Source: Moorella sp. E308F (lineage in GTDB: Bacteria > Bacillota > DSM-521 > Neomoorellales > Neomoorellaceae). Taken from it: a stretch of DNA of 64,000 nucleotides. Shown in pieces: positions 12,860 through 45,340 of the stretch (position 1 is its first letter; every line of letters starts with the position of its first letter). Location: contig NZ_BJKN01000002.1 of NCBI RefSeq assembly GCF_006538365.1, forward strand, positions 399,119 to 463,118. Direction: 5' to 3'. The notes beneath the pieces were generated by a model, which had not been told where the DNA came from, did not search any database, and saw only the letters and a program-made list of their open reading frames with translations. Both the position numbers and the translations under genes were made by a program.

Positions 12860-14056
12860 TTAATAGAGCTTTAAAAACCGCCAGAATAGATCTGCGTCCC
12901 CAGCACGACATTCCGCTTTAGCACGGTCGATTATATCGGTTGCCGCCAGCTTCGCGAGCGCCCGTTCCAGGGGGAAAGCACCGTCAACCGAGCCGGAATG
13001 CAAAATAGCGGCCATCCTGGTGACATCACCGGCCAGGAGCACGTCTTTCAGCGGCGGCACGGCGGGCAAAACGCCAGCGGCCACTACCCGACCGCCGTCG
13101 GCGCCGCAGATGGCTTTTTGAACGACCACCCCGTGTAATACCGCTGCGAGGCGGCACACAGGACCGCCGCTCTCCTGTGCCGGGATCAGCCTGGCCACTC
13201 GCGCCACCGTTTCTTCGGCCGAGGCCGCCCGCACGGCACACACCGTCAGCCTGCCTGTCTCGGCGGCTACTACCACCGCGTCGGCCGTCCCGGCGTCCGG
13301 CACGTCCCCGGCGACTATAACGTCCGCGTCGCTGTACAAGGCGGACTTTACGCCGTTTTCGAAGTTATCCACGTCCTCACCGACCTCGCGCTGGTTGACG
13401 ACGCCGCGGGCATGGCGGTGCAAATAGCGGATAGGATTCTCAACTGTAATCACGTGCCGCGGCGATGTGCGGTTGATAAAATCGACCATGGCGGCTAAAG
13501 TGGCCGCCTTGCCGCTTCCGGTCGGACCGCCCACCAGGATCAGCCCTTCCCCGGTCGCGAGCATCCGCTCCACCGCTTCCTTCACTTCCGGCAGATGGCG
13601 GAACACGTCTTCCAACGAAGGCACGCTCCGGCCCAGGGCACGGCACACCACGGCCGGGTTGCCCCGCTGCCGGAAGACGCTTACGAGGAACCTTGTCATC
13701 CCCGGCAGCGATTTAACGAAGCGAACGGTTCCCGTCTGTTCGAACCGCTCGCGGAGCTCCGGTCGGGCGAAAAGCTCGGCAGCCACCCGCCTCGCTATAG
13801 CTGGGGTTACGACCATTTCCCAAAACGAATTGGTAGCAATGAAGTCGGCGGCCTGTTGTCCTCTGTCGTCTCCCGGGACGGCGAGATCTCTGATTGGGCA
13901 CAGATCACCGTCCACCCTTAAGAGCGGTGGGGCGCCGACCGTGATATGAATGGACGTGGCGCCGATCCCAGCGGCGAACCGTAGCAATGCTTCCACAGGT
14001 TGGCATCCGCTGGCGGCGGGGTCAAGAGTTTGGTTGTTAAGGTTAGATGAGTTCAC
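12860..14056 (-). CDS. PilT-like ATPase paralogue with degraded active site
   Basis: 398 aa, aligning with PilT over its length: N-terminal GATSIHITVGAPPLLRVDG, Walker A region GPTGSGKAA, and VVNQREVG. Key residues differ from PilT. The Ser/Thr after the Walker A lysine is Ala. The Asp box is TVENPIRYLHRH. The Walker B Glu region reads DVIVAGDVPD instead of DVILVGEMRD. The His box GHLVLSTLHT is GRLTVCAVRAA, with both histidines lost. It is likely a non-hydrolysing or slow subunit that modulates PilT or PilB. The GTG start at 14056 follows AGGGGGTG. Confidence 0.8.
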   Translation of the reverse strand: MNSSNLNNQTLDPAASGCQPVEALLRFAAGIGATSIHITVGAPPLLRVDGDLCPIRDLAVPGDDRGQQAADFIATNSFWEMVVTPAIARRVAAELFARPELRERFEQTGTVRFVKSLPGMTRFLVSVFRQRGNPAVVCRALGRSVPSLEDVFRHLPEVKEAVERMLATGEGLILVGGPTGSGKAATLAAMVDFINRTSPRHVITVENPIRYLHRHARGVVNQREVGEDVDNFENGVKSALYSDADVIVAGDVPDAGTADAVVVAAETGRLTVCAVRAASAEETVARVARLIPAQESGGPVCRLAAVLHGVVVQKAICGADGGRVVAAGVLPAVPPLKDVLLAGDVTRMAAILHSGSVDGAFPLERALAKLAATDIIDRAKAECRAGDADLFWRFLKLY

Positions 14057-14182
14057 GACGCAATTCGCACCCCCTGAAATTGGGTTTTCAAAAGAACGGG
14101 CTGGAAGCACAACAGGTTAACCTAATCTATGAACCTGTCAACTTCTTCAATGTGGCACCCAAACTTAATGTCGTAGGTAGCG

Positions 14183-29243: not shown

Positions 29244-29774
29244 TTATTGCTGCCCCTGCCCCGGCGTGGGCTGCTGCGGCTGCTGCCCCTGCGCCGGCGG
29301 CTCTTGCGGCGTCGCCTCCTGTTGTACAGGGGCTACCGGGGCCGGCGGCTGCGGCTGCTGTTCGCCGGGCCGCAATTCCCGGTGCAGCGCCAACGCCTGG
29401 CCGTCTTTGTAGAGGACGTCCACCTGGTCGCCAGCCTTGAACCATTTCGTCAGGTCCAGCTTCTCGCCCGGGCGGTTCACGAAGCCCATCCCGATCTGGA
29501 CCGAGGTGTATTCGTTCGTCCTCGCCGTGACGGTCTGGCCGACGTCGCCGCCGCCTTTTTCGACCTTGACGGTGATCTTGTCCGGCTCTACGGCCACGGC
29601 CTCGCCGCTGCGGACCATCTTCTGCAATTCTTCTTGCTGTTTCCTGGCCGTCTCCACGGCTTGCTTCTTCGGGAGGGAAACGTATTTGTAATACCCCCCG
29701 CTGAAGCCTGCCGCTACGCCGACTAACAAGGAGAGGACGATTGACAGGGCTAAAACGCTTTTGCGGATATACAT
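29244..29774 (-). CDS. membrane-anchored SAF/CpaB-like small protein
   Basis: 176 aa. One N-terminal helix (VLALSIVLSLLVGVAAGFSG), a short coiled coil (KKQAVETARKQQEELQKM), a compact beta domain (about 58-135: DKITVKVEKGGGDVG, FKAGDQVDVLYKDGQAL) and a Gln/Pro-rich tail. I do not recognise the family for certain. Its Pro/Gln tail resembles those of PilO and CpaB here. AAAGGAG precedes ATG 29774. It lies at the downstream end of the Tad gene run, so a pilus-assembly accessory is possible. Confidence 0.55.
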   Translation of the reverse strand: MYIRKSVLALSIVLSLLVGVAAGFSGGYYKYVSLPKKQAVETARKQQEELQKMVRSGEAVAVEPDKITVKVEKGGGDVGQTVTARTNEYTSVQIGMGFVNRPGEKLDLTKWFKAGDQVDVLYKDGQALALHRELRPGEQQPQPPAPVAPVQQEATPQEPPAQGQQPQQPTPGQGQQ

Positions 29775-29825: not shown

Positions 29826-30323
29826 CTATTCAGAATCCGTGCCGTCTCGGACCGTTTCCCCGCACGCGGCCGCCAGGACGTCCAATTTTTCCGCGAGCAG
29901 CACGGCCAAACGGCGGGCTTCGTCGGCCGTCCGGGCCGCCTCTTCCAGCCGCTTTCGCCGCCGCTCGTTTTCCCGCCCGACAACAGAGGCCGCCCGTTCC
30001 GCCAATTCCTTCAGCCCGGCGAGCAATCTCTGTGCGTCCGGCAGGGCCACGGCCGGCGAAGAAGCGGCCGCCGCTTCGGCGAACGCCCGCGAAACCTGCC
30101 GCGCCCCGGAGCGGCCTACCGCCGCGCCGATTGCGGCGGCAGCGGCCCCCGCCGCCAGGACCGAAGCAGCGGTTTGCCATCCAGCCGCCCCCGCCGGGAG
30201 CAGCCGGACCGCCGCGGCCCCGGCCGCCGCGGCCAGCAGCGGCAGCGAGGCGGCCGCCGCGGCTATCCTGCCGGCCGCCTTGACCCCTTTTCGCGCCGCC
30301 GCGTCGAAGCCTTCTTCGGGCAT
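29826..30323 (-). CDS. Ala-rich membrane protein with coiled coil
   Basis: 165 aa from ATG 30323 (GGGGGAAA upstream). Two hydrophobic Ala-rich segments (about 20-40 and 50-72) are followed by a long charged helix (about 95-155; ENERRRKRLEEAARTADEAR). No known family is recognised. The topology suggests a membrane-anchored cytoplasmic or external coiled coil. It immediately follows a TadE-like gene in the same direction. Confidence 0.55.
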   Translation of the reverse strand: MPEEGFDAAARKGVKAAGRIAAAAASLPLLAAAAGAAAVRLLPAGAAGWQTAASVLAAGAAAAAIGAAVGRSGARQVSRAFAEAAAASSPAVALPDAQRLLAGLKELAERAASVVGRENERRRKRLEEAARTADEARRLAVLLAEKLDVLAAACGETVRDGTDSE

Positions 30324-30372
30324 ACACGTTTCCCCCTTTTTTCGGTTTTTGGAAAATTCGATTAAATAAACT

Positions 30373-30888
30373 CTATTGGTTATACCGGTATTCCTTCTTA
30401 GCCGCGGCCGCCACCTTGAACACAAAATGGCCGCCCGAGCGCCACCACGGCCCGTCGGACGGGCGCGCTATGCCCGGCAAAAGCTTCGGCAGGCCGGGCA
30501 GCGGGCATGGCAGATAGTAGGTCACGGCACAATTCACCCACTCGCCGTAGTCTGCGAGCTCCACGCTCGCCCCCCGTTTGCCGTTTGGCGGCGGCTGGTT
30601 CGGCGGCAGGAGGCTGTCGGAAGAATCGAGAAGCCCCTCTTCCGCCAAAACCTTTTTCACCTTGATGGTGGCCCAGGCCGACGCCGCCGCCGGGTCGAAT
30701 TGTCCGAGAAGCACGCCGTATTCCCTGACCCCCGCCCTGGCGGCCATCGCTGCGCCCGACCTGGCGGCGTCCAAGTACAAATAGGTCGCGCCGAAGAAGA
30801 AGACGAAGAAGATCAGGGGGAGCACGAGAAGCCACGGCACCACCTCCCCCCGGCTGCCGGAAACGAAATCCCGCGCCCTCAAACGCAT
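30373..30888 (-). CDS. TadE/TadG-like pseudopilin
   Basis: 171 aa. A basic N-terminus with GSRGEVVPWLLVLPLIFFVF and a following DAARSGAAMAARAGVREYG match TadE-type proteins: one N-terminal helix and a secreted domain. The C-terminus has VNCAVTYYLPCPLPGLPKLL, closely echoed at the end of the 1075-aa protein upstream. TadE-like proteins are minor components of Flp pili. ATG 30888 is very close to AAAAGGGG; TTG 30882 has better spacing and matches the start arrangement of the upstream gene. Confidence 0.72.
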   Translation of the reverse strand: MRLRARDFVSGSRGEVVPWLLVLPLIFFVFFFGATYLYLDAARSGAAMAARAGVREYGVLLGQFDPAAASAWATIKVKKVLAEEGLLDSSDSLLPPNQPPPNGKRGASVELADYGEWVNCAVTYYLPCPLPGLPKLLPGIARPSDGPWWRSGGHFVFKVAAAAKKEYRYNQ

Positions 30889-30937: not shown

Positions 30938-33900
30938 CTATTTCCCGGCCTCGCCGGACACGAAATACGCCTCTCCTACCACTCTGCGGGAGGGCGGCTC
31001 CTCGCCGCGCCACGCCGGCACGCCCGTATGTGACAACATCTTCCACAAACCCTGCAGCGGAACCGGGTAGTGGTACGTCACCCGGCAATAAGCGAAGTTG
31101 TCGGTCCTCGGCTTGCTCACCGGGTCGCCGGCCTGGGCCTGGGGATCGCCCCTGTTCGGGTCGTTGCAGAGGACGTCCTTGTCCGGGTCGAACGTCACCA
31201 GGGCTGACCAATCGTCCGGCGCGTATTCCTGGATCGATTTCACGCGGAAGAACCGCTCCACTTGGCCCGTGTTCTGGCCCCAGAGTACGGCGTTCATGCC
31301 GGCGAACCGGGAGAGGTCGGGTCCGGCAGACCTCACGATGGTGTTCCCCACCCAGTAGTCCTCGCCGTCAAAGGTGAGGGGGCCTTTGAGGACGTCGCCC
31401 TGGGGAACCTCCACGTCTGCCCGCAAGACCGGGCAGCCCTTGTCTTTGAACCAGGTCACGCCTTCCTGCACCATGTCGATTTCCAGGGTGTACGTGCCGG
31501 GCTTCGACGGCGCCTTCACGGGCAGGTTGAACGTGTAAGACTGGCCCGGGGCCACGGCGTAGTCCACGTAGTCCCGCGAGCCGTCCCAGACGACGACCCT
31601 GCCGGTATTTTTGTCGTACCAATGGTACGAGAGGCCGAACCGCCCCTGGGGAGTCCAGGTCAAGCCCCCGTCGTTCCGGGCCGTAATCTGGAGGTTATAA
31701 GTTTTGCCCGCTTCCATGTATTTCGGCGCCCAAGCGGGGTTGTAGGAGACGGCGTAGTCTATACCCCCCACGTCGATCCACGCCTCCAGCGTCGGCCAGT
31801 TGACCCCCTGCAGCGGGCCGAACCAGGCGCAGTATTCCTGGACGCCGTCGACGACCAGCCTGTATTTGCCGGGTTGAGGAGGAGCCTTCACTTTCAGGTC
31901 GAGGTTCGCCGACCCGCCGGGCTGCACGGTCTGCGGCAGGCCCGTCCTCAAGCCGTCCTGGACGACGAGATTCCCTTTGTCGTCGTACCAGTGGTACGAA
32001 AAATTCGTCCGCCAGGAATCGGGGCTGTTCCAATTGCCGGGCCACCAGGAAGGCCTGGAAGCGAACCATTCCTTCCGGGCGAGGTTGGTAGCGCTGATCT
32101 TCACGGTGAATTCCCCTCCGGGCACGACCCTCTGCGGCAGGGTCGCCGCGCCGTAGGCCACGCCGTCGACAGGAGTGTATGTCCACGAAGAGTCGGAATG
32201 AAGGACGACCCCACCGTCGAGATTTACGGTGACGTCATAACCCTGCCCTGACTGGGCTTCTACCTCCACCACGGGCACGTCCACGTAGGTCGGGCTGTAC
32301 AGCACGCTCCTGTCTGTGGTCAGCCTTGTCTTTATCCGGGTGACGTTATAACTGGAAACATCTATCCATTCGTCGTATTCCTGGTTATATCCGGGACTGC
32401 ACCTTTGGGCCAGCAGCACCCACGACGACCCGTTCCACCCGTAAACGTAGCCGTAGTCGTAGTTCCTTTCGCTCTTCCCTTTGACGTGAATCCTCTTTAT
32501 CTTCCCCCCGCCGGGCGGCGACCAGGGGTTGCTCCACACATCGGCCCTGTGGGAGCTCACCTGTACCCGGAGGGCACCGCCGGTAGACTGAGTATCGCCA
32601 TTCCCTGTACCCACGCACACAAAATACTTCGTGTTAGGGTAGGCGTAAAATTGAACCGTGCCGTTTCCGGTCGCTACCCACCCCGACGCTTCCGTTTCCA
32701 CCACGGGCACGTCCACGTAGGTCGGGCTGTACAGCACGCTCCTGTCTGTGGTCAGCCTTGTCTTTATCCGGGTGACGTTATAACTGGAAACATCTATCCA
32801 TTCGTCGTATTCCTGGTTATATCCGGGACTGCACCTTTGGGCCAGCAGCACCCACGACGACCCGTTCCACCCGTAAACGTAGCCGTAGTCGTAGTTCCTT
32901 TCGCTCTTCCCTTTGACGTAGATCCTCTTTATCTTCCTCCCGCCGGGCGGTGACCAGGGGTTGCTCCACACATCTGCCCTGTGGGAGCTCACCTGCAACC
33001 GGAGGGCATTGCTGGTGGAGATGTTTTGGGGACTCCCCGCGTTACCCGTTCCAACGTAAACTGGAGCCGCCCGGCCGTACCGGTCTTTCGCTGTGACGGT
33101 CACCCACTGCGCGTAGGGGACCGTCCACTCGGGGTATTTTACTAAGCCGTTTGAGAGTGATTGTGGCGGATACGATACGGGCCAGTGCCACCCCGTCTGC
33201 TTCACCGTGCATAAGAACCCCGTCGGCCCGTAGTCGTTCCGGGCCGTTACCACGAACTGAACGGGGCGTCTGGGGCCCGGCTCCCAGTCCCAAGTCTTCA
33301 CGCCCTGGCCTGAACCCTGAAGGACATCGGTCGAGTCCACCCGCACGTTGAACCAATCGTCCGCCACAGCATATAATCGGTACTTGTCATAGCCAGCGGT
33401 CCACCAGACCGGCGACGTCAGCGTCACTTCCTGGCCGTTCAGTGCGCATTCCCCGGCCCCGGGTTGGCCCCATATCCACCAGGCGTTGGGGTCAGGCCAC
33501 CCCTGAGCCCACCCCGTTCCCCAGATTCCCTGCCCGTATTTCGCCAAAACGGCCGCCGGGAACGGGCCCGGGCGGCGCGTTTGGTTTACCGTTTGACTGC
33601 CCTGGGTGCCGGATTGGCTGCCGGAAATCCCTCCCACCTGCTGCATCGCTTGCGTCTCCGGCGGGTCGGTCGTGGCGACTTTCGCCAGGAACACGTTCGC
33701 TTCGGCCCAATCGCCGTCCGCCACCACCACTTTGCCTGCCAGGGCGTCCATCTGGCTTTTGACGCCCGGGCTGGCGGGCTTCACCTTCACCGGCCCCCGC
33801 GTGCGGTCGTTGATGACGTAGCCGTTGCCCGTCTTGATCAGCCTGCCGACCAATACGTTGTTAAGGGAATCTTGCGAAATTGCCCCGCCGGGGATGAACG

Positions 33901-34165
33901 ATTTGCCCTGATTGAGGGCGGCGAGGACCACGTCCGCCGCGCGGGATTTCGCGCCCTCAATGTCTCCGGGGTGGGAGGCCAGCCACCTGGCCCCCGAACG
34001 GGCGGCTTCCTCAACAACGTTTTTGGCGTCGGCCATGTGGCCGAACCACGCGAACCCCCAGGCGACGGCCATCAGGAGGGGTAGCAGGATGACCGCCGTC
34101 ACCACGGGGGAAGAGGCACGGGAATGGCGTAAGAAGCCGCTGAGGTGTAAAAAACGTTTACGCAA
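30938..34165 (-). CDS. TadE-like pseudopilin with giant Ig/repeat insertion
   Basis: 1075 aa. The N-terminal helix (SPVVTAVILLPLLMAVAWGF) and DAKNVVEEAARSGARWLA are TadE/TadG-like. The last 60 residues (YCRVTYHYPVPLQGLWKMLS) match the C-terminus of the plain TadE-like protein downstream. About 800 residues of Trp/Tyr-rich modules are inserted between. Among them are two nearly identical about 103-residue repeats (SSHRADVWSNPWSPPGG... WIDVSSYNVTRIKTRL) and two Ig-like domains of the NBR1/FW type (APPQPGKYRLVVDGVQEY; APSKPGTYTLEIDMVQEG). It is likely an adhesin displayed by the Flp pilus. TTG 34165 is eight bases after AAAGGGG. Confidence 0.78.
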   Translation of the reverse strand: MRKRFLHLSGFLRHSRASSPVVTAVILLPLLMAVAWGFAWFGHMADAKNVVEEAARSGARWLASHPGDIEGAKSRAADVVLAALNQGKSFIPGGAISQDSLNNVLVGRLIKTGNGYVINDRTRGPVKVKPASPGVKSQMDALAGKVVVADGDWAEANVFLAKVATTDPPETQAMQQVGGISGSQSGTQGSQTVNQTRRPGPFPAAVLAKYGQGIWGTGWAQGWPDPNAWWIWGQPGAGECALNGQEVTLTSPVWWTAGYDKYRLYAVADDWFNVRVDSTDVLQGSGQGVKTWDWEPGPRRPVQFVVTARNDYGPTGFLCTVKQTGWHWPVSYPPQSLSNGLVKYPEWTVPYAQWVTVTAKDRYGRAAPVYVGTGNAGSPQNISTSNALRLQVSSHRADVWSNPWSPPGGRKIKRIYVKGKSERNYDYGYVYGWNGSSWVLLAQRCSPGYNQEYDEWIDVSSYNVTRIKTRLTTDRSVLYSPTYVDVPVVETEASGWVATGNGTVQFYAYPNTKYFVCVGTGNGDTQSTGGALRVQVSSHRADVWSNPWSPPGGGKIKRIHVKGKSERNYDYGYVYGWNGSSWVLLAQRCSPGYNQEYDEWIDVSSYNVTRIKTRLTTDRSVLYSPTYVDVPVVEVEAQSGQGYDVTVNLDGGVVLHSDSSWTYTPVDGVAYGAATLPQRVVPGGEFTVKISATNLARKEWFASRPSWWPGNWNSPDSWRTNFSYHWYDDKGNLVVQDGLRTGLPQTVQPGGSANLDLKVKAPPQPGKYRLVVDGVQEYCAWFGPLQGVNWPTLEAWIDVGGIDYAVSYNPAWAPKYMEAGKTYNLQITARNDGGLTWTPQGRFGLSYHWYDKNTGRVVVWDGSRDYVDYAVAPGQSYTFNLPVKAPSKPGTYTLEIDMVQEGVTWFKDKGCPVLRADVEVPQGDVLKGPLTFDGEDYWVGNTIVRSAGPDLSRFAGMNAVLWGQNTGQVERFFRVKSIQEYAPDDWSALVTFDPDKDVLCNDPNRGDPQAQAGDPVSKPRTDNFAYCRVTYHYPVPLQGLWKMLSHTGVPAWRGEEPPSRRVVGEAYFVSGEAGK
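32266..33007 (-). repeat. near-identical 310-bp direct repeat pair, 432 bp apart
   Basis: The blocks 32266-32575 and 32698-33007 differ at only a few bases (for example near 32487, 32517, 32542 and 32563 against their partners). Homogenised coding repeats of this sort allow unequal recombination, so repeat number can vary. Confidence 0.85.
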
Positions 34166-34170
34166 GCGGG

Positions 34171-34875
34171 TCACCCCTTTCTTTTTTTAAGTCGTTTCCA
34201 GCATATCAAAACTTCGTTGCGCGGCGGCACCGGAGGAAACCGCTTTACCTTCACTTCCGGGAACGCCGCCTTAAAAGCCGCAACTGCGGCGGCCTGCTTC
34301 CGGTCGAAAGGGTGGATTCTGGTCGTGTTCACCGCCGCAGTCCCGCCGGGCACCACGGCATGTCTCACTAAGGGGGCCAATTCCCCTAGCCAGAATGGCG
34401 TATGCCCGCGGTCGAAAATGTCTATAAAAACAAAGGCGAACCGACCTTCCGCCGCTTGGCGCAGGTACGCCAGGGCGTCTTCCCGGACCACCTCGACATG
34501 CGGCGGCAGGGCGAAATACCGCCGGGCGGCCTCTTCCGCCGCCGGGTCGGGGTCCACGGCGACCACATTGACTCCCGGCCGCAAAGAGAGGGCGACGTGG
34601 GCGAACGCCCCGCCGCCAAGGCCGAGGATCAGCACGTCGCCGGAGGGGGGGCATTCGGCTAAAGCCTCCGCCGCCGCTTTCAGCGGGAAAGTGCGGGGCG
34701 TGGACGGATCGCGGCGGTCGAGCACGGTCTGCACGGTAAAGAGGCTGGAACGGAGGTGCCGCCGCGGCGCCCACACGGCGTCCGTCACATAGAGGGAACC
34801 GAAAACTTCGCTGGAAATTTCGGCCACCGACTTTTCGCCCACCAGCGCGAAGCAGACACGCTTCAAAAGCTCCAA
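34171..34875 (-). CDS. spermidine-synthase-like SAM-dependent methyltransferase fold protein
   Basis: 234 aa from TTG 34875 (GGGGGTGG upstream, just past the peptidase stop). It has a short N-terminal beta domain (VFGSLYVTDAVWAPRRHLRS) and a Rossmann core with DVLILGLGGGAFAHV, NVVAVDPDP and FVFIDIFDRG. This layout is shared by spermidine synthases and related methyl- or aminopropyl-transferases. The polyamine synthase motif is not complete, so substrate is open. Its place between the Tad peptidase and TadE-like genes suggests modification linked to the pilus. Confidence 0.7.
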   Translation of the reverse strand: MELLKRVCFALVGEKSVAEISSEVFGSLYVTDAVWAPRRHLRSSLFTVQTVLDRRDPSTPRTFPLKAAAEALAECPPSGDVLILGLGGGAFAHVALSLRPGVNVVAVDPDPAAEEAARRYFALPPHVEVVREDALAYLRQAAEGRFAFVFIDIFDRGHTPFWLGELAPLVRHAVVPGGTAAVNTTRIHPFDRKQAAAVAAFKAAFPEVKVKRFPPVPPRNEVLICWKRLKKRKG

Positions 34876-34877
34876 AG

Positions 34878-35414
34878 TTAAACCACCCCCAAACCAAGAA
34901 GGACTGACGCCGCGACGAACCCCGCACACAGGAACGGCCCGAAAGGAACAGGGTCGAACCCGGAGGGAACGTCTTCCTGCCTCAGCCTGCCGCCCAATAA
35001 GATAAAGAACAGAGCCTTCTTTTCCTCCGCCAGCCACCGCCGGAGCCCGGCGCGGCGGACCCGCATAGGCACCACGGCGGCCAAGAGCAGCCCGCACCCC
35101 AGGGCCAGCCCGAGGAAAGCCGCGTCCGCCCCGCCCAGCGGGCCGAGGGCGGCGAACAGCTTCGCGTCCCCTTCGGCGAAGACCCCGAGCGTCCAGAGGA
35201 AAAAGCCCGCAAAAAAGCATACCCCCAGCGTTTCGGCGGCAGGAACCGCCCGTCCCGAGGCGGCCCCCAGCAAAAGGCCCAAAAGCATCGCCGGGTAGGT
35301 GAGCCAATTCGGGATGGTCATGGTGCGGGCGTCCCAAACCGCCGCGACGGCGGCGACGGCGGCCGCCGCCAGCGCCCCGGCGAAACTAACGGTCGAAACG
35401 GTCAAGACGTTCAA
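34878..35414 (-). CDS. tadV: short prepilin peptidase (CpaA/TadV)
   Basis: 178 aa, six or so membrane helices, A24A family without the zinc-binding N-terminal domain. The catalytic aspartates are in VWDARTMTIPNWLT and AEGDAKL (GxGD-like). CpaA/TadV enzymes cleave Flp and TadE-type prepilins. Its substrates here would be the genes at 36754-37485 and the TadE/TadG-like proteins. The gene overlaps the end of the methyltransferase gene upstream. Confidence 0.88.
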   Translation of the reverse strand: MNVLTVSTVSFAGALAAAAVAAVAAVWDARTMTIPNWLTYPAMLLGLLLGAASGRAVPAAETLGVCFFAGFFLWTLGVFAEGDAKLFAALGPLGGADAAFLGLALGCGLLLAAVVPMRVRRAGLRRWLAEEKKALFFILLGGRLRQEDVPSGFDPVPFGPFLCAGFVAASVLLGLGVV

Positions 35415-36753: not shown

Positions 36754-36918
36754 TCACTGGCCCGCCAGGGAATTGCCCATCTTCTGGGCGGCTGTTTTCA
36801 AACCGGGGCCTATATATTTCCATACCGTCACAGCCATGATGACCCCGATGATCAGCACCACCATCCAGGGTACGGCTTCCCCCCGGTCGCTCCGCAGAAA
36901 ACGCAAAATTTTAGACAT
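36754..36918 (-). CDS. small Flp-pilin-like protein
   Basis: 54 aa: MSKILRFLRSDRGEAVPWMV then VLIIGVIMAVTVWKYIG and a short amphipathic tail. GEAVPWMVVLIIG resembles the GEAVTWIVLVIIG core of the two Flp pilins just upstream, but the rest differs. It could be a minor pilin or an assembly peptide. GGGGGGATAAGCG precedes ATG 36918. A terminator lies between it and the Flp genes. Confidence 0.75.
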   Translation of the reverse strand: MSKILRFLRSDRGEAVPWMVVLIIGVIMAVTVWKYIGPGLKTAAQKMGNSLAGQ

Positions 36919-36955
36919 CGCTTATCCCCCCGGAAAAATGATTTTGAAAAAAAAA

Positions 36956-36980
36956 GCCCGGTCTCACGAAAAGACCGGGC
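36956..36980 (-). terminator. terminator after the Flp pilin pair
   Basis: GCCCGGTCT pairs with AGACCGGGC over seven bases, with nine T residues following on the minus strand. Strong termination here would keep Flp pilin transcripts abundant relative to the genes downstream. Confidence 0.92.
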
Positions 36981-36999
36981 CGTTCCGGGTACGCCGACG

Positions 37000-37197
37000 C
37001 TATTGAATGCGTACAGTGTTAAGGCCGCTCGCAGCGTTGTTCGCAGCGCCGCTTATCTCGTTGCCCACGTTACCGGGCGAGGACTTGAATTTCAGGAACG
37101 CCGCCACCGCGAGGATCACGCCGATGATGACCAGCACGATCCACGTGACGGCCTCGCCCCTGTCGCCCTTGAGGAAGTGTTTCAGCAGATTGAACAC
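37000..37197 (-). CDS. flp: Flp pilin 1
   Basis: 65 aa from GTG 37197 with AGGAGGTGA upstream. Leader MFNLLKHFLKGDRG is followed by EAVTWIVLVIIGVILAVAAF, a Flp-type prepilin with Glu right after the Gly, then KFKSSPGNVGNEISGAANNA. Nearly identical to the copy at 37288. It should be cut by TadV and polymerised by TadA/B/C. Confidence 0.88.
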   Translation of the reverse strand: MFNLLKHFLKGDRGEAVTWIVLVIIGVILAVAAFLKFKSSPGNVGNEISGAANNAASGLNTVRIQ

Positions 37198-37287
37198 TTG
37201 GGTTCACCTCCTGTAAAATGTTTTAAATAAAAAAACCAGGGTGATCAGATTTTTTTGTGTGCGGTTGTTTAAAATAAACTGAACCAA

Positions 37288-37485
37288 CTATTGAATTTTT
37301 ACTGCGTTCAAACCTTGGGCAGCGTTGCTTGCCGCGCCGCTTATCTCGTTGCCCACGTTGCCAGGTGAGGACTTGAATTTCAAGAACGCGGCCACCGCGA
37401 GGATCACGCCGATGATGACCAGCACGATCCACGTGACGGCTTCGCCCCTGTCGCCCTTGAGGAAATGCTTCAGCAGATTGAACAC
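37288..37485 (-). CDS. flp: Flp pilin 2
   Basis: 65 aa from GTG 37485 with GGAGGCGA upstream. Same leader and helix as Flp 1; they differ only in the last about 15 residues (GAASNAAQGLNAVKIQ against GAANNAASGLNTVRIQ). A recent tandem duplication with 288-bp period. The two may vary the pilus surface or simply raise dosage. Confidence 0.88.
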   Translation of the reverse strand: MFNLLKHFLKGDRGEAVTWIVLVIIGVILAVAAFLKFKSSPGNVGNEISGAASNAAQGLNAVKIQ

Positions 37486-37520
37486 TTGAGTTCGCCTCCT
37501 TTCCATATATTTCAAAAAAG

Positions 37521-37543
37521 AAAGGCCAGATTGCCTGGCTTTT
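37521..37543 (-). terminator. terminator after the GT-C gene
   Basis: AAAGGCCAG pairs with CTGGCTTTT (one wobble). The minus strand continues with TCTTTTTTG. It separates the Tad machinery transcript from the Flp pilins, which then need their own promoter. Confidence 0.75.
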
Positions 37544-37584
37544 CTTTTTTTTTTTGCGCCGCCGTTTTAGAAAAACTCAAGTGG

Positions 37585-39021
37585 CTATTGAATATTGGCC
37601 GCATTCAAACCTTTGCTTCCCGGCCCGACCGTGCGGGCGAACACCACCGCCGCATTGTCCCTGTAGACTTCCCGCCAATCAGGATTACGGGATAGGTACA
37701 GGGCCATCCAGGAATCGGACGGCATCAGCACCGTTTTAACCCCCCACTTGGCGAACACCGCGTCCGGCTCCGGCGGCCGGAGGATCCCTTCGGCCCGGTC
37801 GTAGTCGTCCATCACGCCCGATCCGGAAAGCACGTACATATCCGCCCGGCCGTCGATGAACGGCTCGACCCCCCGCCAGATCAGATACCCTCCCCAGGTA
37901 TAGTAGTTGAACACCCGGCCCGTCAAACCTTCCCTTACCATATAGGACACAGCGGCCTCGGGAAAACCGCTACCGGGCCATGCGGGCGGCGGGGAAGAGA
38001 CGGTGGCCGTAAGCCCCAACGCCGTCAGGACGAGTGCCGTCGCAGCCGCGATTTTCATGCCCGGACCGGAGAAACGCGCCGCCAGCGCCGGGGCAGCCGC
38101 GGCGGGCCAGAGCACGGCGAAAACGGCAAGGTGCCGCATGGAGACGAGGCCCGCCAGGAACGCCCCGGCGGCCAGGAGGCGGAACGCGGCGTCGCCGCGC
38201 GGCAGGAGGAACAGCAATATCGCCGCCGCCAATACAGGGAGCATAAAAGGCGAGTGGAAATCCGGCGACAGCCACTCGTTTATGGTGTTGATCATTTCCG
38301 GGTGCGAACCGACCTTTAAGGCGAACCCCCACACGCCGAAGCCCCATGGGTTCAGTCCCGTGGCCAGAAAACTTGCGGCCGCGCCCGCGAATTGGCGGGC
38401 AACGACGCCCTGCTTTTTCGCAAGGGCGTCGGCGGACAGCATGACGATCCCCATCAGGGGACCCAGCGGCGCGGAAGCGTGGACGTTCGCCCAGACGGCC
38501 GCCAGGACGGGTAAACACGCGGCGGCCCAACGTTTTTCCCGCGCCAGGTCCAGGAGCCAGAGCCATGCCGTAAGAAAACTCAGGGCGAGCACGTGCGGCC
38601 TCGCGCTTATAAAAGCCGCGAGGGACGCGAGGGAAACGGGGGCACACGCCAGCGACCATGCCGGACTGCCGGACCGCCGCGCCGCTAAAAGGAAAGAAAA
38701 CGCCGCCGCCAGGGCCACCCCAGCGGCCGTTAAGACCCACAAGCCGCGCGTGCCGCAGACGCGCCACAAGACGGCGGCAAGGATTTCCCACAGCCACTCG
38801 TGGGCGTGCCAGGGGGCGCCGGGGGCCGTCCAGGAGAACGGGTCGGCTTTCGGGATTTCCTTGAGGGAGAGGACCCATTCCCCGACTTTCAAGTGCCAGA
38901 AGGTGTCGCCCTGTACCAGCGAACCGCCGCAAGCCGCCGTCGCGGCCATCGCAAGGGCTGCGACGGCCAGCAGGCATAAGGCGGTGATTATTTTGTCTTT
39001 CAGAAAACCGCTTTTTATCAT
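37585..39021 (-). CDS. GT-C type membrane glycosyltransferase-like protein
   Basis: 478 aa, about ten membrane helices. The first loop has GDTFWHLKVGEWVL and PWHAHEWLWEIL, and a C-terminal domain has VFNYYTWGGYLIWRG and FIDGRADMY. This arrangement is typical of GT-C relatives in Gram-positive envelopes. It overlaps the TadG-like gene at its start (ATGA) and precedes the Flp pilins. A role in pilin glycosylation with the GT2 enzyme is inference. Its last residues, KGLNAANIQ, resemble the Flp pilin tail QGLNAVKIQ. Confidence 0.75.
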   Translation of the reverse strand: MIKSGFLKDKIITALCLLAVAALAMAATAACGGSLVQGDTFWHLKVGEWVLSLKEIPKADPFSWTAPGAPWHAHEWLWEILAAVLWRVCGTRGLWVLTAAGVALAAAFSFLLAARRSGSPAWSLACAPVSLASLAAFISARPHVLALSFLTAWLWLLDLAREKRWAAACLPVLAAVWANVHASAPLGPLMGIVMLSADALAKKQGVVARQFAGAAASFLATGLNPWGFGVWGFALKVGSHPEMINTINEWLSPDFHSPFMLPVLAAAILLFLLPRGDAAFRLLAAGAFLAGLVSMRHLAVFAVLWPAAAAPALAARFSGPGMKIAAATALVLTALGLTATVSSPPPAWPGSGFPEAAVSYMVREGLTGRVFNYYTWGGYLIWRGVEPFIDGRADMYVLSGSGVMDDYDRAEGILRPPEPDAVFAKWGVKTVLMPSDSWMALYLSRNPDWREVYRDNAAVVFARTVGPGSKGLNAANIQ

Positions 39022-39704
39022 TGCGCCGGGATAGCCTGGGCCACCCCCTTACCGGCCACCTTCACCGCCCCGCTCCATCCTGCGGGCCTGGGGGCGGAAG
39101 CGAGGGATTGGAAAACGTCCTGCCCGCTTATCATCCTGAAGAGCGGCACGAGCAGGTACGACCTCGCCCCGGCTTCCGCGCGGGATACCTTGTATTGGTC
39201 GTAGTAGACCGACCCGTCGCGGGCGTATTTTGGCGCGGACCAATCCACGTCCGCCTCGAAAGCGTAGCCGGCGGTCGGGTTGGGCACAGCCCCGGCAACC
39301 GGCGGACAAGCGATGTCCTGTACGGGCACCTTTTCGCCCGTCAGGTTCCGCCGGAAAGCTGCCGCGGCGGCGTTCCACGCTTGTACGGCTTTTTGCCGTA
39401 GGTCGCAGTGATACCCGACGACTTTCGCTTCCACCTTCACGGCCCTGTCGGGGTCGGTGGTCACGTTGCCGTTTCCGTCGTACATCACGTATTCGTATTC
39501 CGGCACGATCTCCGCTTGCATCGCCCCGGCTAGGGCAGCGGCGTCGGCAGCCGTCTGCAGTCTGGCCTGGACGGCGTGCGCCCTGGCGTAGTCGAACCCC
39601 AGCACGCCGATTACGCACGAAAGTACGATGAGGAGCAGGATCAATACGGCCGTGCCGCGCTCGCCGGAAAAGAAATACCTGATCCGTCCGGACACCTTTA
39701 TCAT
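39018..39704 (-). CDS. TadG-like protein
   Basis: 228 aa from ATG 39704, overlapping the upstream stop as ATGA behind GGAGGTGG. ERGTAVLILLLIVLSCVIGV and DYARAHAVQARLQTAADAAALAGAM are the TadE/TadG_N signature. No von Willebrand A domain is present, so it is shorter than classical TadG. The secreted part has YEYVMYDGNGNVTTDPDRA and ends QAIPAQ. It is probably a minor Flp pilus component. Confidence 0.8.
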   Translation of the reverse strand: MIKVSGRIRYFFSGERGTAVLILLLIVLSCVIGVLGFDYARAHAVQARLQTAADAAALAGAMQAEIVPEYEYVMYDGNGNVTTDPDRAVKVEAKVVGYHCDLRQKAVQAWNAAAAAFRRNLTGEKVPVQDIACPPVAGAVPNPTAGYAFEADVDWSAPKYARDGSVYYDQYKVSRAEAGARSYLLVPLFRMISGQDVFQSLASAPRPAGWSGAVKVAGKGVAQAIPAQ

Positions 39705-40048
39705 TTTCCACCTCCGACCTTCCTGATCGCCGAGAACAATTCCAACGACGCCGCGCCCGCGGCGTTCGCCGCCCACGCCACCAACGCCCACGCCAGGACA
39801 GGCTGGTGGACGGCCCTGACCGAAAATGCACCCACGGCCAGGGAAACGACGGACAGGGCCACCAGGCTCGCCCCGGCCCGCCCCAGGACCGGGGTGAGAA
39901 AGCAGCGCAACACGGCGTGTCCCGCCGTCACAAGCAGGAAGAGAAAAGGAACGCCCTGTACGGCGACCAGCGTCCAATTGCTGAATTCGGCGACTTTCTG
40001 GGCCAGGTAGAAATCGCCGCCGTTTTGCAATGCGGAAAAAGGGTCCAC
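39701..40048 (-). CDS. small polytopic membrane protein of the Tad locus
   Basis: 115 aa with three hydrophobic segments (VQGVPFLFLLVTAGHAVL; ASLVALSVVSLAVGAF; AWALVAWAANAAGAASL). I do not recognise the family. It lies between tadC and the TadG-like gene with a four-base overlap, so it is translated with the pilus genes. GTG 40048 is close to GGGGTGAGAG. Confidence 0.65.
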   Translation of the reverse strand: MDPFSALQNGGDFYLAQKVAEFSNWTLVAVQGVPFLFLLVTAGHAVLRCFLTPVLGRAGASLVALSVVSLAVGAFSVRAVHQPVLAWALVAWAANAAGAASLELFSAIRKVGGGK

Positions 40049-40074
40049 CTTCTCTCACCCCACAATGCTTGCGT

Positions 40075-40932
40075 TCAATGGAACGGGTTCTGCTGGGCCA
40101 AAGAGATGAGCATAGGGGCGAGGGTGCAGATTATCGTCGGCAGCGCCATGACGAACACGGCAAGATACAGCTTTTGTTCCGCGCTTTTGGCCTGGCCCAC
40201 TATTTCGGCCTTGCGGCGTTCCCTGGCGTCTTTCACCGCTTCCGAAAGTTTCCCCGCCACCGAAGCGCCGTAGCGCTGGGCCTGGATGACCGTTGTGGCC
40301 AACCTCTGCGCGTCCAGAAGGCCCGTCCGGGCGGCGAAATTTTTCAGCACTTCTTCCAGGGGCGCGTTGTACCTGGCCTCCTCGACCGCGCGCCGCAATT
40401 CTTCGCGCAAAGCCGAACGCTTCTCGGTGATCCCGCCGGACGCCCATTCCAGGGCGGCCCTCAATTCAAGTCCGGCCGACAGGGCCGTGGCCAGCCTGGA
40501 CGCCACCATGATAAATTCCCTCTTCATCGCTTTACGCCGTTCGCTGATCAGAAAAGAAAGCCACCAGTCCGGCAATTTGATGAAGACCACAGGGATAAAG
40601 GCTAACATATTCGAGGAAAAGACGCCCAGCAGGGCGGACGCGGCCGCCAGCCCTATCAGGCCGAAACGCAGGGTGTCGAACGCTTCCGGGCTGAAGCCGT
40701 AGGGGTTTCCTGCCAGGGCGAGCTTTTCTTCCACGTCCGGCGGGCCGGCGAGCTTCTGCAGCCACGGGTGGTATATCAACAGCCTGGTGAAAAACCGGGA
40801 AGCCGTCTCAGAAAACGGCGGCGAATGCGCGGCCAGGTCGAAAGCCGTGACGGAGACGCGGAGCCCGGCCGCGACCGCAAGGCAGAAGACGAACGCCGCC
40901 GCGAAAAAAGGTACGGAAACAGGGACGTTCAT
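40075..40932 (-). CDS. tadC: TadC platform protein
   Basis: 285 aa of the GspF/T2SSF family. A membrane pair lies near residues 85-120, a cytoplasmic helical domain (MKREFIMVASRLATALSAGL; YGASVAGKLSEAVKDARERR) follows, and a final helix (LYLAVFVMALPTIICTLAPM) ends the protein. TadB and TadC form the inner-membrane base of the Flp pilus. ATG 40932 follows AAAGGCGG; an upstream start at 40965 would overlap tadB. Confidence 0.9.
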   Translation of the reverse strand: MNVPVSVPFFAAAFVFCLAVAAGLRVSVTAFDLAAHSPPFSETASRFFTRLLIYHPWLQKLAGPPDVEEKLALAGNPYGFSPEAFDTLRFGLIGLAAASALLGVFSSNMLAFIPVVFIKLPDWWLSFLISERRKAMKREFIMVASRLATALSAGLELRAALEWASGGITEKRSALREELRRAVEEARYNAPLEEVLKNFAARTGLLDAQRLATTVIQAQRYGASVAGKLSEAVKDARERRKAEIVGQAKSAEQKLYLAVFVMALPTIICTLAPMLISLAQQNPFH

Positions 40933-40951
40933 AAAAACCGCCGCCTTTCTT

Positions 40952-41839
40952 TCAAAAATCTTCAATCGAACGCAGGATGTTCATCACCAGCCAGAGGCCG
41001 AAGCAGAAAACGAGAAAAGCCACAAAAGCCGCCGTGCGGCCCATCTGGGTGTCCACGAGCGGCCGGAAGAGGTCCGGCGCCAGGACGAGCATGCCGAAAA
41101 TGTACGCCACAGGGATGAACGTTACCAGGATGGCTGATGTCTTGGCCCCTTTCGTGTGCTGGTGTACCTGGTAGCGCGTGCTGATGCCGTCCCGCAGGCT
41201 GGTCAGCACTTCCCGCAAGAGGTTCAGCGACCGCGGGCCGCCCACTTTGCTGTAAAGCTCCACCGCGTCGCACAGCTCTTCGGCTTCGACGCAGGGGATG
41301 CGGGCCGCCAGGCCCCGGAACGCTTCCGGTTCCGGCAAACCGCCGGCGATTTCTTCCGCCAGGCGTAAAAATTCCGACTTGATAGGCTCCGGAGAATGCA
41401 TGGACGCCTCACGTAACGCTTTCTCCATAGACATACCGATGTGCAGCGCGGTCATCAGGGTGTCCAGCCCGAATTCTATGTTGCTCCGGAAAGCCTTTAT
41501 CCTGCGCCGGAAAAGGTAGAGGTTCAACGCCCGCGGGCCGAGCAGAAAGCCGCCCGCCGCCAGCGGAACAGCGAACACCGGGTCGGCCAGCAAAGAGGTC
41601 AAAAAGAACGTCCCCACCCCTATGGCCGCCCCGGCGAGTGCCCCGGACTCGAGCGTCAGAGGGGAATCCCCCCGCAGGTTCCAGAGGCGCACGAAAAAAG
41701 TTTCGCCCTTCCCCCGGTTCCTGTAAGCCGCCGCGCCGCCGCTGGGCAGCAGCGGGTTGCTGCGTTTCCATCCGGCGAAAGCGCAGAACAGCGAAAATAC
41801 GGCGAAAAATGTCGCCAGACCGATGAATGGCGTCAACAA
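40952..41839 (-). CDS. tadB: TadB platform protein
   Basis: 295 aa, partner of TadC. N-terminal helices, a cytoplasmic domain with FRSNIEFGLDTLMTALHIG and STRYQVHQHTKGAKTSAILV, and C-terminal helices (FVAFLVFCFGLWLVMNILRS). TTG 41839 lies eight bases after GAGAGGG and overlaps the tadA stop. GTG 41848 is also in frame but too close to that site. Confidence 0.9.
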   Translation of the reverse strand: MLTPFIGLATFFAVFSLFCAFAGWKRSNPLLPSGGAAAYRNRGKGETFFVRLWNLRGDSPLTLESGALAGAAIGVGTFFLTSLLADPVFAVPLAAGGFLLGPRALNLYLFRRRIKAFRSNIEFGLDTLMTALHIGMSMEKALREASMHSPEPIKSEFLRLAEEIAGGLPEPEAFRGLAARIPCVEAEELCDAVELYSKVGGPRSLNLLREVLTSLRDGISTRYQVHQHTKGAKTSAILVTFIPVAYIFGMLVLAPDLFRPLVDTQMGRTAAFVAFLVFCFGLWLVMNILRSIEDF

Positions 41840-43194
41840 CCGAACCACCCTCTCAATTCGTCCATTTCTTCAGGGGTAAGGTAAAGCGCCAGCTTGCGTT
41901 TGCCGAGGAACGCGGGGATTTCGCCGGTGGGCCGCAGCTTTCCCAAAGGAGCGCCGTCTTCCGCGAAGCCCTCAACGCGGAAAGTGTAGAGGGGCACCAC
42001 TTCCGGCAGGGAATCCGCGTCCCGGCGCCGGATCTCGGCGACGTCCAGAAGCCTCCTGTGGCCATTTATCTGCCCGAGGAAAAACACGACCTCAGCAGCG
42101 GCCACTTTCCCTGCCCGCGACGCCGGGGTGCTGTACGCCCCTCCCCGGTACGCCGCCAGCATGTCCGAAAGCCGCAGGGGCACCTCTTCCGGGCCGTCGG
42201 CGTGGACTGTGGACATTGACCCCGGGTGACCGATGTTCATGGCCTGGAGGGTCCAATAGGTGGTGATTTCATTACGGCATTCCGAGCAGATGACTCTCGC
42301 CGGTTTGGTGCGGAGGACTTTTTCGAACAGCAGGTCGGGCGGCACGGCGCCCTCCCCTTCCACTCCGGCCCGACGCGGCTCCAGCACAACGGTCCACGGT
42401 GTGGGGAGGTCCGGCCGGCGCGGGTCCGGCAAGCCGACCCGCGTCTCCGCCGGGTCCTCGATGAATACCAGCCTCTCGTCCGGCCCTACGCGGAGCAGGA
42501 GTGCGTTCAAAAAAGTGTTTTTGCCGGAGCCCATGCCCCCGGCGGCGAACACGTTCAGCCTCGCCTTGACCATCAGATCGAACATCCTCACGAGTTCCGG
42601 CGGGAACAAATTCCTTTCAGCCAGCTCATCGAGCGTGAACAGGCGCGAAAACCGGCGGATGATCATGCTCGTACCCCGTACAGAAGGGCCGTCAAGGAAG
42701 ACCACCGCCCGCGACCCGTCGGGCAGCCGGAAGTCCTCGACCGGCCGCGCTTCGTCAACCTTGCGGCCCACCGTGGCTGCAAGGCGCACGGCAAACCGCC
42801 GCAAGTGCTCTTCGGAAGCGAAAGTCTTGTTCCATTTACGGATGCGGCCGTCCTTTTCGTAACGGATGAAATTGTAGCGGTCGATCCAGATGTCGGTCAC
42901 GCCTGGATCTTCCATCAGATCCGTAATAGGCCCGAAGCCATAGATGTCTTTCATGAGCTCTTCGATAAGGTTTACTGGCATGCCCTCGCGGGCCACGATT
43001 TCCCGGAGCAGCGAGCGCGCCTTTTCTTTGTCGCGCATCGTCCCTAAATCCGAAGCCCACGCTTCCTGGATGAGCTTCAGCCGCAATTCGTCGAGGGCGT
43101 CGCGCCCGCTTGCGTCGTCGCCGGGAAGAGACTGGGGTCTTTCTTCTTCTTTCCTGAAGAAGAGTTCGGCGTATAAGGAATCGCAATCGTTCAC
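41833..43194 (-). CDS. tadA: TadA/CpaF pilus ATPase with unusual Walker A
   Basis: 453 aa from GTG 43194 (AAAGGCGGTGG upstream). Core features: PVEDFRLPDGSRAVVFLDGP, Walker A GGMGSGKNT (about residues 219-227), FIEDPAETRVG, and LQAMNIGHPGSMSTVHADGP with the catalytic histidine. The residue after the Walker A lysine is Asn in place of Thr, and the Walker B region reads RVICSECRNE rather than the usual GEVRG. The conserved Glu is kept. It is the only CpaF ATPase in the locus, so it is presumably active. Confidence 0.9.
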   Translation of the reverse strand: MNDCDSLYAELFFRKEEERPQSLPGDDASGRDALDELRLKLIQEAWASDLGTMRDKEKARSLLREIVAREGMPVNLIEELMKDIYGFGPITDLMEDPGVTDIWIDRYNFIRYEKDGRIRKWNKTFASEEHLRRFAVRLAATVGRKVDEARPVEDFRLPDGSRAVVFLDGPSVRGTSMIIRRFSRLFTLDELAERNLFPPELVRMFDLMVKARLNVFAAGGMGSGKNTFLNALLLRVGPDERLVFIEDPAETRVGLPDPRRPDLPTPWTVVLEPRRAGVEGEGAVPPDLLFEKVLRTKPARVICSECRNEITTYWTLQAMNIGHPGSMSTVHADGPEEVPLRLSDMLAAYRGGAYSTPASRAGKVAAAEVVFFLGQINGHRRLLDVAEIRRRDADSLPEVVPLYTFRVEGFAEDGAPLGKLRPTGEIPAFLGKRKLALYLTPEEMDELRGWFGC

Positions 43195-43214
43195 AGGAAC
43201 CACCGCCTTTAAAT

Positions 43215-44510
43215 TCAACGTTTTTGCCGATTTTTGCTGAAAAGAGCCCTTACCTTTTCCATCAGTCCCGTCTTAGGCCGCGCCGTTATCCCGATGTCCA
43301 CCCCCAGGATGTTCCGCGCCAGCAGGCACATGGACCGGGTGAAGGGCGAATCGGGGCGGACGCACACGAAGGGCTGCCCGCTCACCTGGCTCTCCTTGTC
43401 TCCGAGGGCCGCCTCTTCCGGCAATTCGCCTTTAAGGGGCACGGCCGCGCCAGCTTCCCGTGAAAAAGCCGCCACGAAATCGCTGACCGTGAACCATGTC
43501 GGCCTCACGCGGTTCAAAACCATGCCCGTCCGGGCGGGGTCGAGGATGCGCCCCAGCTCCTGGCGGTACGCGGAAGCCAAAAGCCTCATGTCTTTGTACT
43601 CGAACCGGCAGACAAGCAAGACGTCCGTGGCTTTAGCGAGGGCCACGAGGATGGGGTCGCGGTCTTTGAGGGCAACGCCGGTGTCCACTATCACGAAATG
43701 GAAAAATTTCTGGCAGCCCTCGACGATCCGGCTCGCCAGGTCGCGGCCGAACCGGACTTTTTCGTCGGCCGTCTGCGGCGGGGCCAGGTAATACACGTTC
43801 GCCCCCTCGTGGTAGTTCATCGCCCCCGCGACGGCGCTCCACTGCAGCGTGTCTTCCGTAAAGTCCTCCCACAGTATCGCCGTTTTGGGCCTGCGGTCGT
43901 CGCCGAGGGCAAACCATGTATAAAGCCCCGTCGACCCGTCGAGGTTGAAATCCAGCAGGGCTACCCTGCACGGCGTCCCTGCGGCACGCTCCTGCTCCCG
44001 CGCCCACATGCCCATCAGGGCGGCCAGGTTTTCGGCCACCGTCGTTTTGCCCGCCCCGCCTTTGTCGGAATACACCACCAGCGTCCGCGCGGTCACAGGC
44101 ACGGCCCGCTGGGTGGAAGCGACCTCCGGGGGCTTCACCTCTATGTCGTCCAGCCGGAACCGCTGGGGGTTGAGACGGCCCAAAGCCGTGACGCACGCTT
44201 TCACCGCCTGTTCCGGGTCCGCCGGGACGGAATAGATCCGCGCCTCGCTCATGCGTGCCCACGTCGAGGCGTTCACCGGCCCGGAAACGAAGATCAGAGT
44301 GTTGGGCCGCACGCGGGCGAGGTCGATGGCCACGTTCGTCCATTCGGGGTGGGAAGGTAACAGCACCCCGTCAGGTTTGACCTTGTCCACCAGGATGTAA
44401 ACGTCGTAGGGAGAGGCCGCCTCGCCCCCTACCTTCGCCCCGTGTCTGGCCGCCGCGGCTTTGCATTCCCGGACGAATTCCGGGGAGCCTCCTACGAAAA
44501 GCAGAGACAC
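43215..44510 (-). CDS. tadZ: TadZ/CpaE pilus-localising ATPase
   Basis: 431 aa. A receiver-like N-terminal domain (about 1-115, lacking an obvious phosphorylation triad) is followed by a MinD/ParA ATPase with deviant Walker A SDKGGAGKTT (148-157), DFNLDGSTGL and a switch region FVIVDTGVALKDRDP. TadZ proteins place the Tad machine at a cell pole. GTG 44510 follows AAAGGGG and is three bases after the cpaB stop. Confidence 0.9.
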   Translation of the reverse strand: MSLLFVGGSPEFVRECKAAAARHGAKVGGEAASPYDVYILVDKVKPDGVLLPSHPEWTNVAIDLARVRPNTLIFVSGPVNASTWARMSEARIYSVPADPEQAVKACVTALGRLNPQRFRLDDIEVKPPEVASTQRAVPVTARTLVVYSDKGGAGKTTVAENLAALMGMWAREQERAAGTPCRVALLDFNLDGSTGLYTWFALGDDRRPKTAILWEDFTEDTLQWSAVAGAMNYHEGANVYYLAPPQTADEKVRFGRDLASRIVEGCQKFFHFVIVDTGVALKDRDPILVALAKATDVLLVCRFEYKDMRLLASAYRQELGRILDPARTGMVLNRVRPTWFTVSDFVAAFSREAGAAVPLKGELPEEAALGDKESQVSGQPFVCVRPDSPFTRSMCLLARNILGVDIGITARPKTGLMEKVRALFSKNRQKR

Positions 44511-44512
44511 TC

Positions 44513-45340
44513 TTATTCAGCCCCTTTCTTTTCAGCCGGCGTTTGTCCTGGACCGGCCTGCTGGGACGAACCGGACGGCTGCTGCGCGGGTACGGCCGGC
44601 GGCGTTACGCCGGTCTGCTGGGAAATGCCGGGCCGCTGTTGCGTGGAGACGTCCGGCTGCGGCAGTGCCGGGCCGTTCGGCTGTCCGGCGTTAGCTTGCT
44701 GCGCGGCGCCGACCAGGGGTTTCAGGACGAAAGTCAAAGAATTTTCCTTGCCGCCCGTGAAATAGGGCAGCACTTTGTCCAGGTCCTTAGCCGACAGGGC
44801 CAGGATCACGCCCTGGGTGGGCTGTGCCCCCTGGGGCGTCTGCACCGTTCCCGCTTGCAGCACCAGCACATCCGATGCCACTTTCACCGGCGGCTCCTTG
44901 TCGCTCGCCCGGGAGTATATGTCCACCCGGTTGCCGGCCGCCAGCGTGCCCGCCACCGTGGTGCCCAGCGTGTTCGGCACGGCCACGGCCACGTAATCGC
45001 CCCCCAGGGCGGCAACGCTGCCGGCTACGCCGGCCTGCTGCGGCGGCATGAGCATAGAGCGGCGCAGCACGGTGCCCGCCGGTATGAAGCCCCGGGCGAC
45101 CATCCCGGCGGCGTCCCGCGGGGCCGCCACCACGTCCGGGTAGAGCGAGCCTTTCGCTTGCTCCACCAGCGTCACGTCGTTGGCCGTGAGCATTTCGTTC
45201 GCGGCGACGTCCCGCTTTACCGCCACCACTTGCACGACGCCGGCGAACGACCGCACGGTCTGGACGGCGGCCGCCGCCGCCAATACGGCGAAGACGGTCG
45301 CCGCCAGCAGCCAATACCTGTAATTCTTGAACACGTTCAC
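44513..45340 (-). CDS. cpaB: CpaB/RcpC pilus assembly protein
   Basis: 275 aa. An N-terminal helix (YWLLAATVFAVLAAAAAV) is followed by a SAF domain (VVAVKRDVAANEMLTANDV; RGFIPAGTVLRRSML) and a second beta domain (LAAGNRVDIYSRASDKE). A long Gln/Pro-rich tail completes it. CpaB proteins are periplasmic or wall-side factors for Flp pili. GTG 45340 follows AAAGGGGTG and overlaps the preceding stop. Confidence 0.9.
   Translation of the reverse strand: MNVFKNYRYWLLAATVFAVLAAAAAVQTVRSFAGVVQVVAVKRDVAANEMLTANDVTLVEQAKGSLYPDVVAAPRDAAGMVARGFIPAGTVLRRSMLMPPQQAGVAGSVAALGGDYVAVAVPNTLGTTVAGTLAAGNRVDIYSRASDKEPPVKVASDVLVLQAGTVQTPQGAQPTQGVILALSAKDLDKVLPYFTGGKENSLTFVLKPLVGAAQQANAGQPNGPALPQPDVSTQQRPGISQQTGVTPPAVPAQQPSGSSQQAGPGQTPAEKKGAE

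Follow-up and report, generated by a model that had tools for sequence, protein, structure and literature searches.

The targets of Tad pili are largely unknown, and minor pilins have only recently been proposed as exchangeable tips of these filaments. Modular pilins and tip complexes as such are already known. For the Tad pili of Myxococcus, TadEFG-like tip complexes with variable domains have been reported (PMC12075869); these Kil Tips of Myxococcus xanthus comprise minor pilins of the TadE, TadE/F, and TadG types, variable domains greatly enlarge one of the three, and their largest extra domain is C-terminal and carried by the TadG-type KilN. Insertion of a large domain within the pilin fold, and not at its end, is known from ComZ of Thermus thermophilus and from GspK (PMC6561018, PMC8179133), which carry one domain (beta-solenoid or alpha) in a type IVa/T2SS-type pilin and have been proposed to occupy the tip together with a plain partner. 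In Streptococcus sanguinis, PilB and PilC are pilin units bearing binding modules, which are C-terminal and follow a pilin with the N_methyl motif (PMC8179133). Because the survey in PMC8179133 used this motif only (IPR012902/PF07963), TadE-type cases fall outside it.

Here, we describe a giant TadE-type minor pilin encoded in the window, by which we mean the whole 64,000-nucleotide stretch of Moorella sp. E308F DNA that was analysed. Similarly to the Kil Tips, the locus combines TadE- and TadG-type minor pilins of which one is much enlarged, but the added sequence lies inside a loop of the TadE-type protein and is built of repeated modules. By analogy to ComZ and GspK, it may be regarded as an insertion within the pilin fold, and it is likewise proposed to sit at the tip beside a plain partner; the likeness is architectural, and many domains are inserted in a TadE-type pilin instead of one in a type IVa/T2SS-type pilin. 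With PilB and PilC it has in common a pilin unit bearing putative binding modules. In the literature searched, we found no TadE-type pilin with an insert this large and a shuffling set of modules.

The giant gene in its Tad locus

The giant gene lies alongside genes for TadA, TadB/TadC, a CpaB-like protein, and a prepilin peptidase (Table 1), and three different minor pilins are co-encoded: the giant TadE, a plain TadE-like companion, and a TadG-like protein that matches PF13400 with 35.0 bits (cut-off 22.3). A plain TadE-like gene also adjoins or lies near the giant gene in the loci L002, L003, L038, and L039. In the preliminary description, the giant gene spanned 30938-34165 and the plain neighbour had 171 aa; the open reading frames give 34174 and 172 aa instead. 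The three Flp-like pilin frames had no Pfam match.

Pfam TadE matched residues 28-63 of the giant protein with 29.5 bits (cut-off 22.9). NCBIfam had no match for this protein or its orthologs, and PF07963 (N_methyl) was absent among its matches up to E 1, in a search where HMMER filters can drop weak ones. The leader reads SRA/SSPVV (slash, presumed cleavage site) and departs from the class III pattern, in which Gly precedes the cut and Glu occupies position +5; it has Ala at the former position and no Glu at the latter. The Gly is present in the giant orthologs L002 and L003. Glu +5 is missing in all six giant homologs and in the companion TadEs and is found in nearly all plain TadEs compared; the Flp-like pilins of the window locus are likewise without it. 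The missing Glu is a trait of the whole pilus system and not peculiar to the giant pilin, and we call the protein TadE-type, of an atypical branch, and not a canonical TadE.

Several neighbouring features were recorded. Two of the Flp-like frames share 85% DNA identity across 236 nt (36754-37613, minus strand). Upstream of them lies a gene for a 478-aa membrane protein (37585-39021), the 3' end of which falls within a 67-nt repeat; the final residues of this protein, GLNAANIQ, resemble the ends of the Flp-like pilins. Between the prepilin peptidase and giant pilin genes lies a gene for a spermidine-synthase-like methyltransferase (34171-34935, minus strand) that also occurs in L003 and L039, not in L038, and its product could modify pilins. 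Downstream of the companion TadE, two small function-unassigned proteins are encoded (29244-29774 and 29826-30425, minus strand); the 176-aa one, with a GFxGGYY...GMGFVN motif, has counterparts adjoining pilin genes in L002, L038, and L039. Farther away, the window encodes a second decorated pilin (16391-18346, minus strand), a 651-aa pilin-like protein with N_methyl, T2SSG, Big_1, and seven RCC1 repeats, in a region that also holds T2SSE (12860-14110) and T2SSF (6355-7572) proteins. The earlier suggestion of two unrelated pilus systems, both with decorated subunits, holds for the decoration, given this pilin-RCC1 protein, but not for the lack of relationship, because the T2SSE, T2SSF, and N_methyl pilin signatures of the second system make both of them type IV filaments.

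Table 1. Coordinates in the window of the giant pilin, its parts, and the Tad genes around it
Feature	Coordinates	Strand	Basis
Giant modular TadE-type minor pilin, 1078 aa, GTG start	30938..34174	-	Open reading frame; Pfam TadE and N_BRCA1_IG; orthologs L002 and L003
Pilin N-terminal part, residues 1-96 (leader, hydrophobic helix, next helix)	33887..34174	-	hhalign to companion TadE family
b1, small beta domain, residues 104-156, first in insert	33707..33865	-	hhalign to b2; shuffle control
Trp-rich beta region, residues 226-376, ahead of module B	33047..33499	-	Alignment of long orthologs
Module B, 105 aa, beta-sandwich	32693..33007	-	Orthologous module modelled; XepA match
Module C, 105 aa, A/B type	32261..32575	-	Identity to module B; tree
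FW1, divergent FW-type Ig domain, residues 670-803	31766..32167	-	Identity to FW2; Trp check
FW2, FW (NBR1/ILRUN) domain, residues 804-925	31400..31765	-	PF16158; structure
b2, small beta domain, residues 926-985, copy of b1	31220..31399	-	hhalign
Pilin C-terminal part, residues 993-1078 (strand-helix-strand)	30941..31198	-	blastp and profile match to TadE2
Plain companion TadE-like minor pilin (TadE2), 172 aa	30373..30891	-	Open reading frame; blastp; profiles
Prepilin peptidase (Peptidase_A24)	34878..35414	-	Pfam
Three tandem short Flp-like pilin ORFs	36754-36918, 37000-37197, 37288-37515	-	RGEAV(P/T)W motif; repeats
TadG-like minor pilin	39018..39710	-	PF13400; probable internal start near 39710 in ORF 39018-40058
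TadB/TadC platform proteins (two T2SSF)	40075..41848	-	Pfam
TadA ATPase (T2SSE)	41833..43218	-	Domain match
CpaB/RcpC-like (SAF, RcpC)	44513..45340	-	Domain match

Pilin ends and the interior between them

By blastp, residues 1-79 of the giant protein match the companion TadE with 30% identity and residues 1006-1056 match it with 35% identity (E 4e-6). When profiles of the orthologous sets were compared, giant residues 10-96 aligned with residues 4-90 of TadE2 (hhalign, E 5e-10), and the giant C-terminal profile aligned with TadE2 residues ~105-140 with a score of 32.3, compared to a maximum of 19.7 in 100 column shuffles; single matches of the C-terminal profile to plain TadEs were weak by themselves (E 0.01-0.14). 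The gap between the two matched stretches is ~13 residues in the plain TadE versus ~900 in the giant, which points to an insertion at one loop. A large insertion in one pilin-like domain whose ends match the plain neighbour had been proposed before, and both ends and the single loop withstood the analysis. The extents did not: the N-terminal match covers only ~96 residues and not the first 150 or so, because residues 104-156 form a separate small domain that recurs at 926-985, and the insert has ~900 and not ~800 residues, because this domain already belongs to it.

Orthologs were sought in one genome per species, and a phylum search and a class search then added further relatives. Intact long orthologs were found in two thermophiles, Desulfofundulus thermosubterraneus (1171 aa, 78% identical) and Desulfovirgula thermocuniculi (about 1190 aa, 76% identical). 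Two short forms occur: one of 455 aa in genome G332, in which b1, an FW domain, and b2 lie between the N- and C-terminal pilin parts, and one of 509 aa in G406, in which b1, a module, and an FW domain do so. Every intact ortholog retains the two pilin ends around a different interior; this is the strongest evidence that the ends make up one unit with a tolerant loop, and it is independent of any structure model. An insertion into a single pilin is best supported by the short forms, which have the same ends and fewer domains. Altogether, that orthologs of 455, 509, 1078, 1171, and ~1190 aa keep their ends and change their interior, and that the companion TadE has only ~13 residues at this place, supports the view that a single large insertion splits a TadE pilin; constant ends with a variable interior are also the mark of insertional pilins of the ComZ/GspK kind.

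It is unlikely, in our estimate, that the pilin helix is a mere membrane anchor and the C-terminal 80 residues an independent domain, in which case nothing would be split. This explanation would account for the helix alone reaching Pfam and for the structure models giving no direct evidence that the ends pack together, neither the poor full-length AlphaFold model (mean pLDDT 53.9, pTM 0.28) nor that of the 509-aa ortholog, which was built on 29 aligned rows (mean pLDDT 78.3, pTM 0.43). However, every homolog has kept the C-terminal end, no matter what its interior contains, whereas an independent domain need not stay terminal, and its profile matches the C-terminal end of the companion TadE well above shuffles.

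No giant gene turned up in 10 further genomes of the same genus or in 21 others of the order, and a horizontal origin is therefore likely. When 398 genomes were searched for TadE, the best-scoring matches listed had open frames of up to 387 aa, but giant forms score low and may rank below those matches. In G406, a gene for a TnpB-like protein (L079:2995-4059) lies close to the 509-aa ortholog. In G089, the giant copy (L039:6348-9514) is split over several frames and resembles a decayed gene.

Domains and modules of the insert

The 904 residues of the insert include 116 F/W/Y, 45 of them W, and such an aromatic-rich composition would suit carbohydrate or surface binding. Its bounding domains b1 and b2 are paralogous (hhalign E 3.7e-7), and the b1/b2 domain scores 15-18 in two homologs, whereas none of 1200 shuffled sequences scored above 7.3. 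The Trp-rich region is kept in the long orthologs and has pLDDT values of 25-54 in the full-length model.

Two FW domains of the NBR1 type, as recognised in the preliminary description, are borne out by sequence, by four Trp residues in FW2 (W840, W852, W863, and W908), and by the structure match of FW2. PF16158 matched residues 820-903 with 27.1 bits, slightly below the cut-off of 28, and scored 28.4 bits in the ortholog L002. FW1 is 35% identical to FW2 (E 4e-18) and retains three of the four Trp. FW2 is well modelled within the full-length protein and resembles the FW domains of ILRUN (6vhi; Z 10.3, rmsd 2.7, 104 residues) and NBR1 (4ole; Z 9.1), as does the FW domain of the 509-aa ortholog (Z 10.4 and 9.9, respectively). 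The fold and the four Trp of FW2 are thus common to NBR1/ILRUN, whereas the giant pilin has its FW domains in tandem, in an extracellular-type bacterial context, and with one Trp fewer in FW1. FW domains function in protein binding in Nbr1 and are present in other bacterial proteins too (PMC9233695). An apparent Desulfovirgula genome encodes a 1256-aa protein (L080:807-4577) with an M6 peptidase followed by six FW domains, suggesting that FW domains serve in other secreted-type proteins of that genome.

The two near-identical modules noted at the outset were confirmed, with ~105 aa each, 96% protein and 96.5% DNA identity, and a run of 73 successive identical codons. In the model of the 509-aa ortholog, in which module and FW domain are mostly above pLDDT 90, the module (pLDDT 86-97) matches the PBSX exported protein XepA (6i56; Z 9.9, rmsd 3.2, 104 residues). 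This match of a single module displaced a reading of the module pair as two CUB domains (Z 7-8, rmsd 14-25) that came from the poor full-length model. Neither the module nor the full profile had a convincing match among PDB sequences, a PHROGs search gave weak matches alone (E 0.02 or more), a plasmid search gave none, and viral fold matches were unspecific. The same module recurs in G352, in a 1780-aa protein that is different in other respects and has PKD-like sequence on both sides of the module.

Relatives carry 0, 1, 2, or 3 module copies at differing sites: the long orthologs have a ~105-aa module at each of three sites (A, B, and C), the window giant has two at B and C, the broken G089 copy has a tandem pair at A and leaves B and C empty, and the 509-aa form has one. 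Module C of the window is of the A/B sequence type, unlike the site-C modules of the orthologs, and is without a 5-residue deletion common to the site-C modules of the other two species with long forms. These two modules (F_C and V_C) group together with support of 88/79, the sole group in a module tree that is too short for firm forks. Because of its A/B type, the missing deletion, and the grouping of the other site-C modules, module C of the window has been overwritten by, or exchanged for, a copy of module B, either as a duplicate or by gene conversion. Because relatives hold different sets in this loop, the pilus tip seems to be re-equipped by swapping modules.

Proposed role of the giant pilin

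We consider it probable that the giant protein is a minor Tad pilin in which the N-terminal helix and the C-terminal end make up one TadE unit, with a recombining, loop-borne insert that sits at the tip and touches the target surface. In this model, the prepilin peptidase would remove the leader, the N-terminal helix and the C-terminal ~65-85 residues would form one TadE-type pilin unit, and the loop that joins the helix region to the final strands would hold ~900 residues of beta-rich binding domains, namely b1, the Trp-rich region, two ~105-aa beta-sandwich modules, two FW domains, and b2. Through its helix, the protein would join the filament alongside its TadG-like and plain TadE partners, with the bulky insert at the tip as the part contacting the target surface. 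Across species, the loop would gain, lose, and homogenise modules via recombination while the pilin ends would be unchanged. Of this model, the analysis shows the gene, its domains, its Tad locus, the constant ends around a changing interior, and the duplicate or converted module. We infer that the giant pilin is exported, placed at the tip, and engaged in binding, and its domain types make it plausible that the insert is adhesive.

That the giant pilin is instead a shaft subunit, many copies of which would decorate the filament to give a thick adhesive pilus, strikes us as quite improbable. For modular pilins with a flexible linker, PMC8179133 leaves room for a shaft position, but the three tandem Flp-like pilins are the obvious major subunits, the set of giant, plain TadE, and TadG-like genes resembles three-gene tip sets (PMC12075869), and a 900-aa insert would be expected to crowd a helical shaft. 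An assembly error or a chance fusion of separate genes, which the G089 copy split over frames might recall, is refuted by the intact orthologs, as three long and two short independent copies have an uninterrupted frame.

Returning to the tip pilin that we favour, it is tempting to speculate, although we hold this to be doubtful, that the TadE loop is a docking site for recombining binding modules, whose number and place, and hence tip specificity, are altered by duplication and gene conversion. If so, Tad pili would change their tip specificity with the assembly machinery unaltered. The favoured reading of one split pilin would itself extend insertional pilins, so far ComZ and GspK, to the TadE branch. 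Finally, one pilin occurs here in a natural series from 455 to ~1190 aa with the same ends and different sets of domains, which makes Tad tip specialisation directly testable in thermophilic Bacillota.
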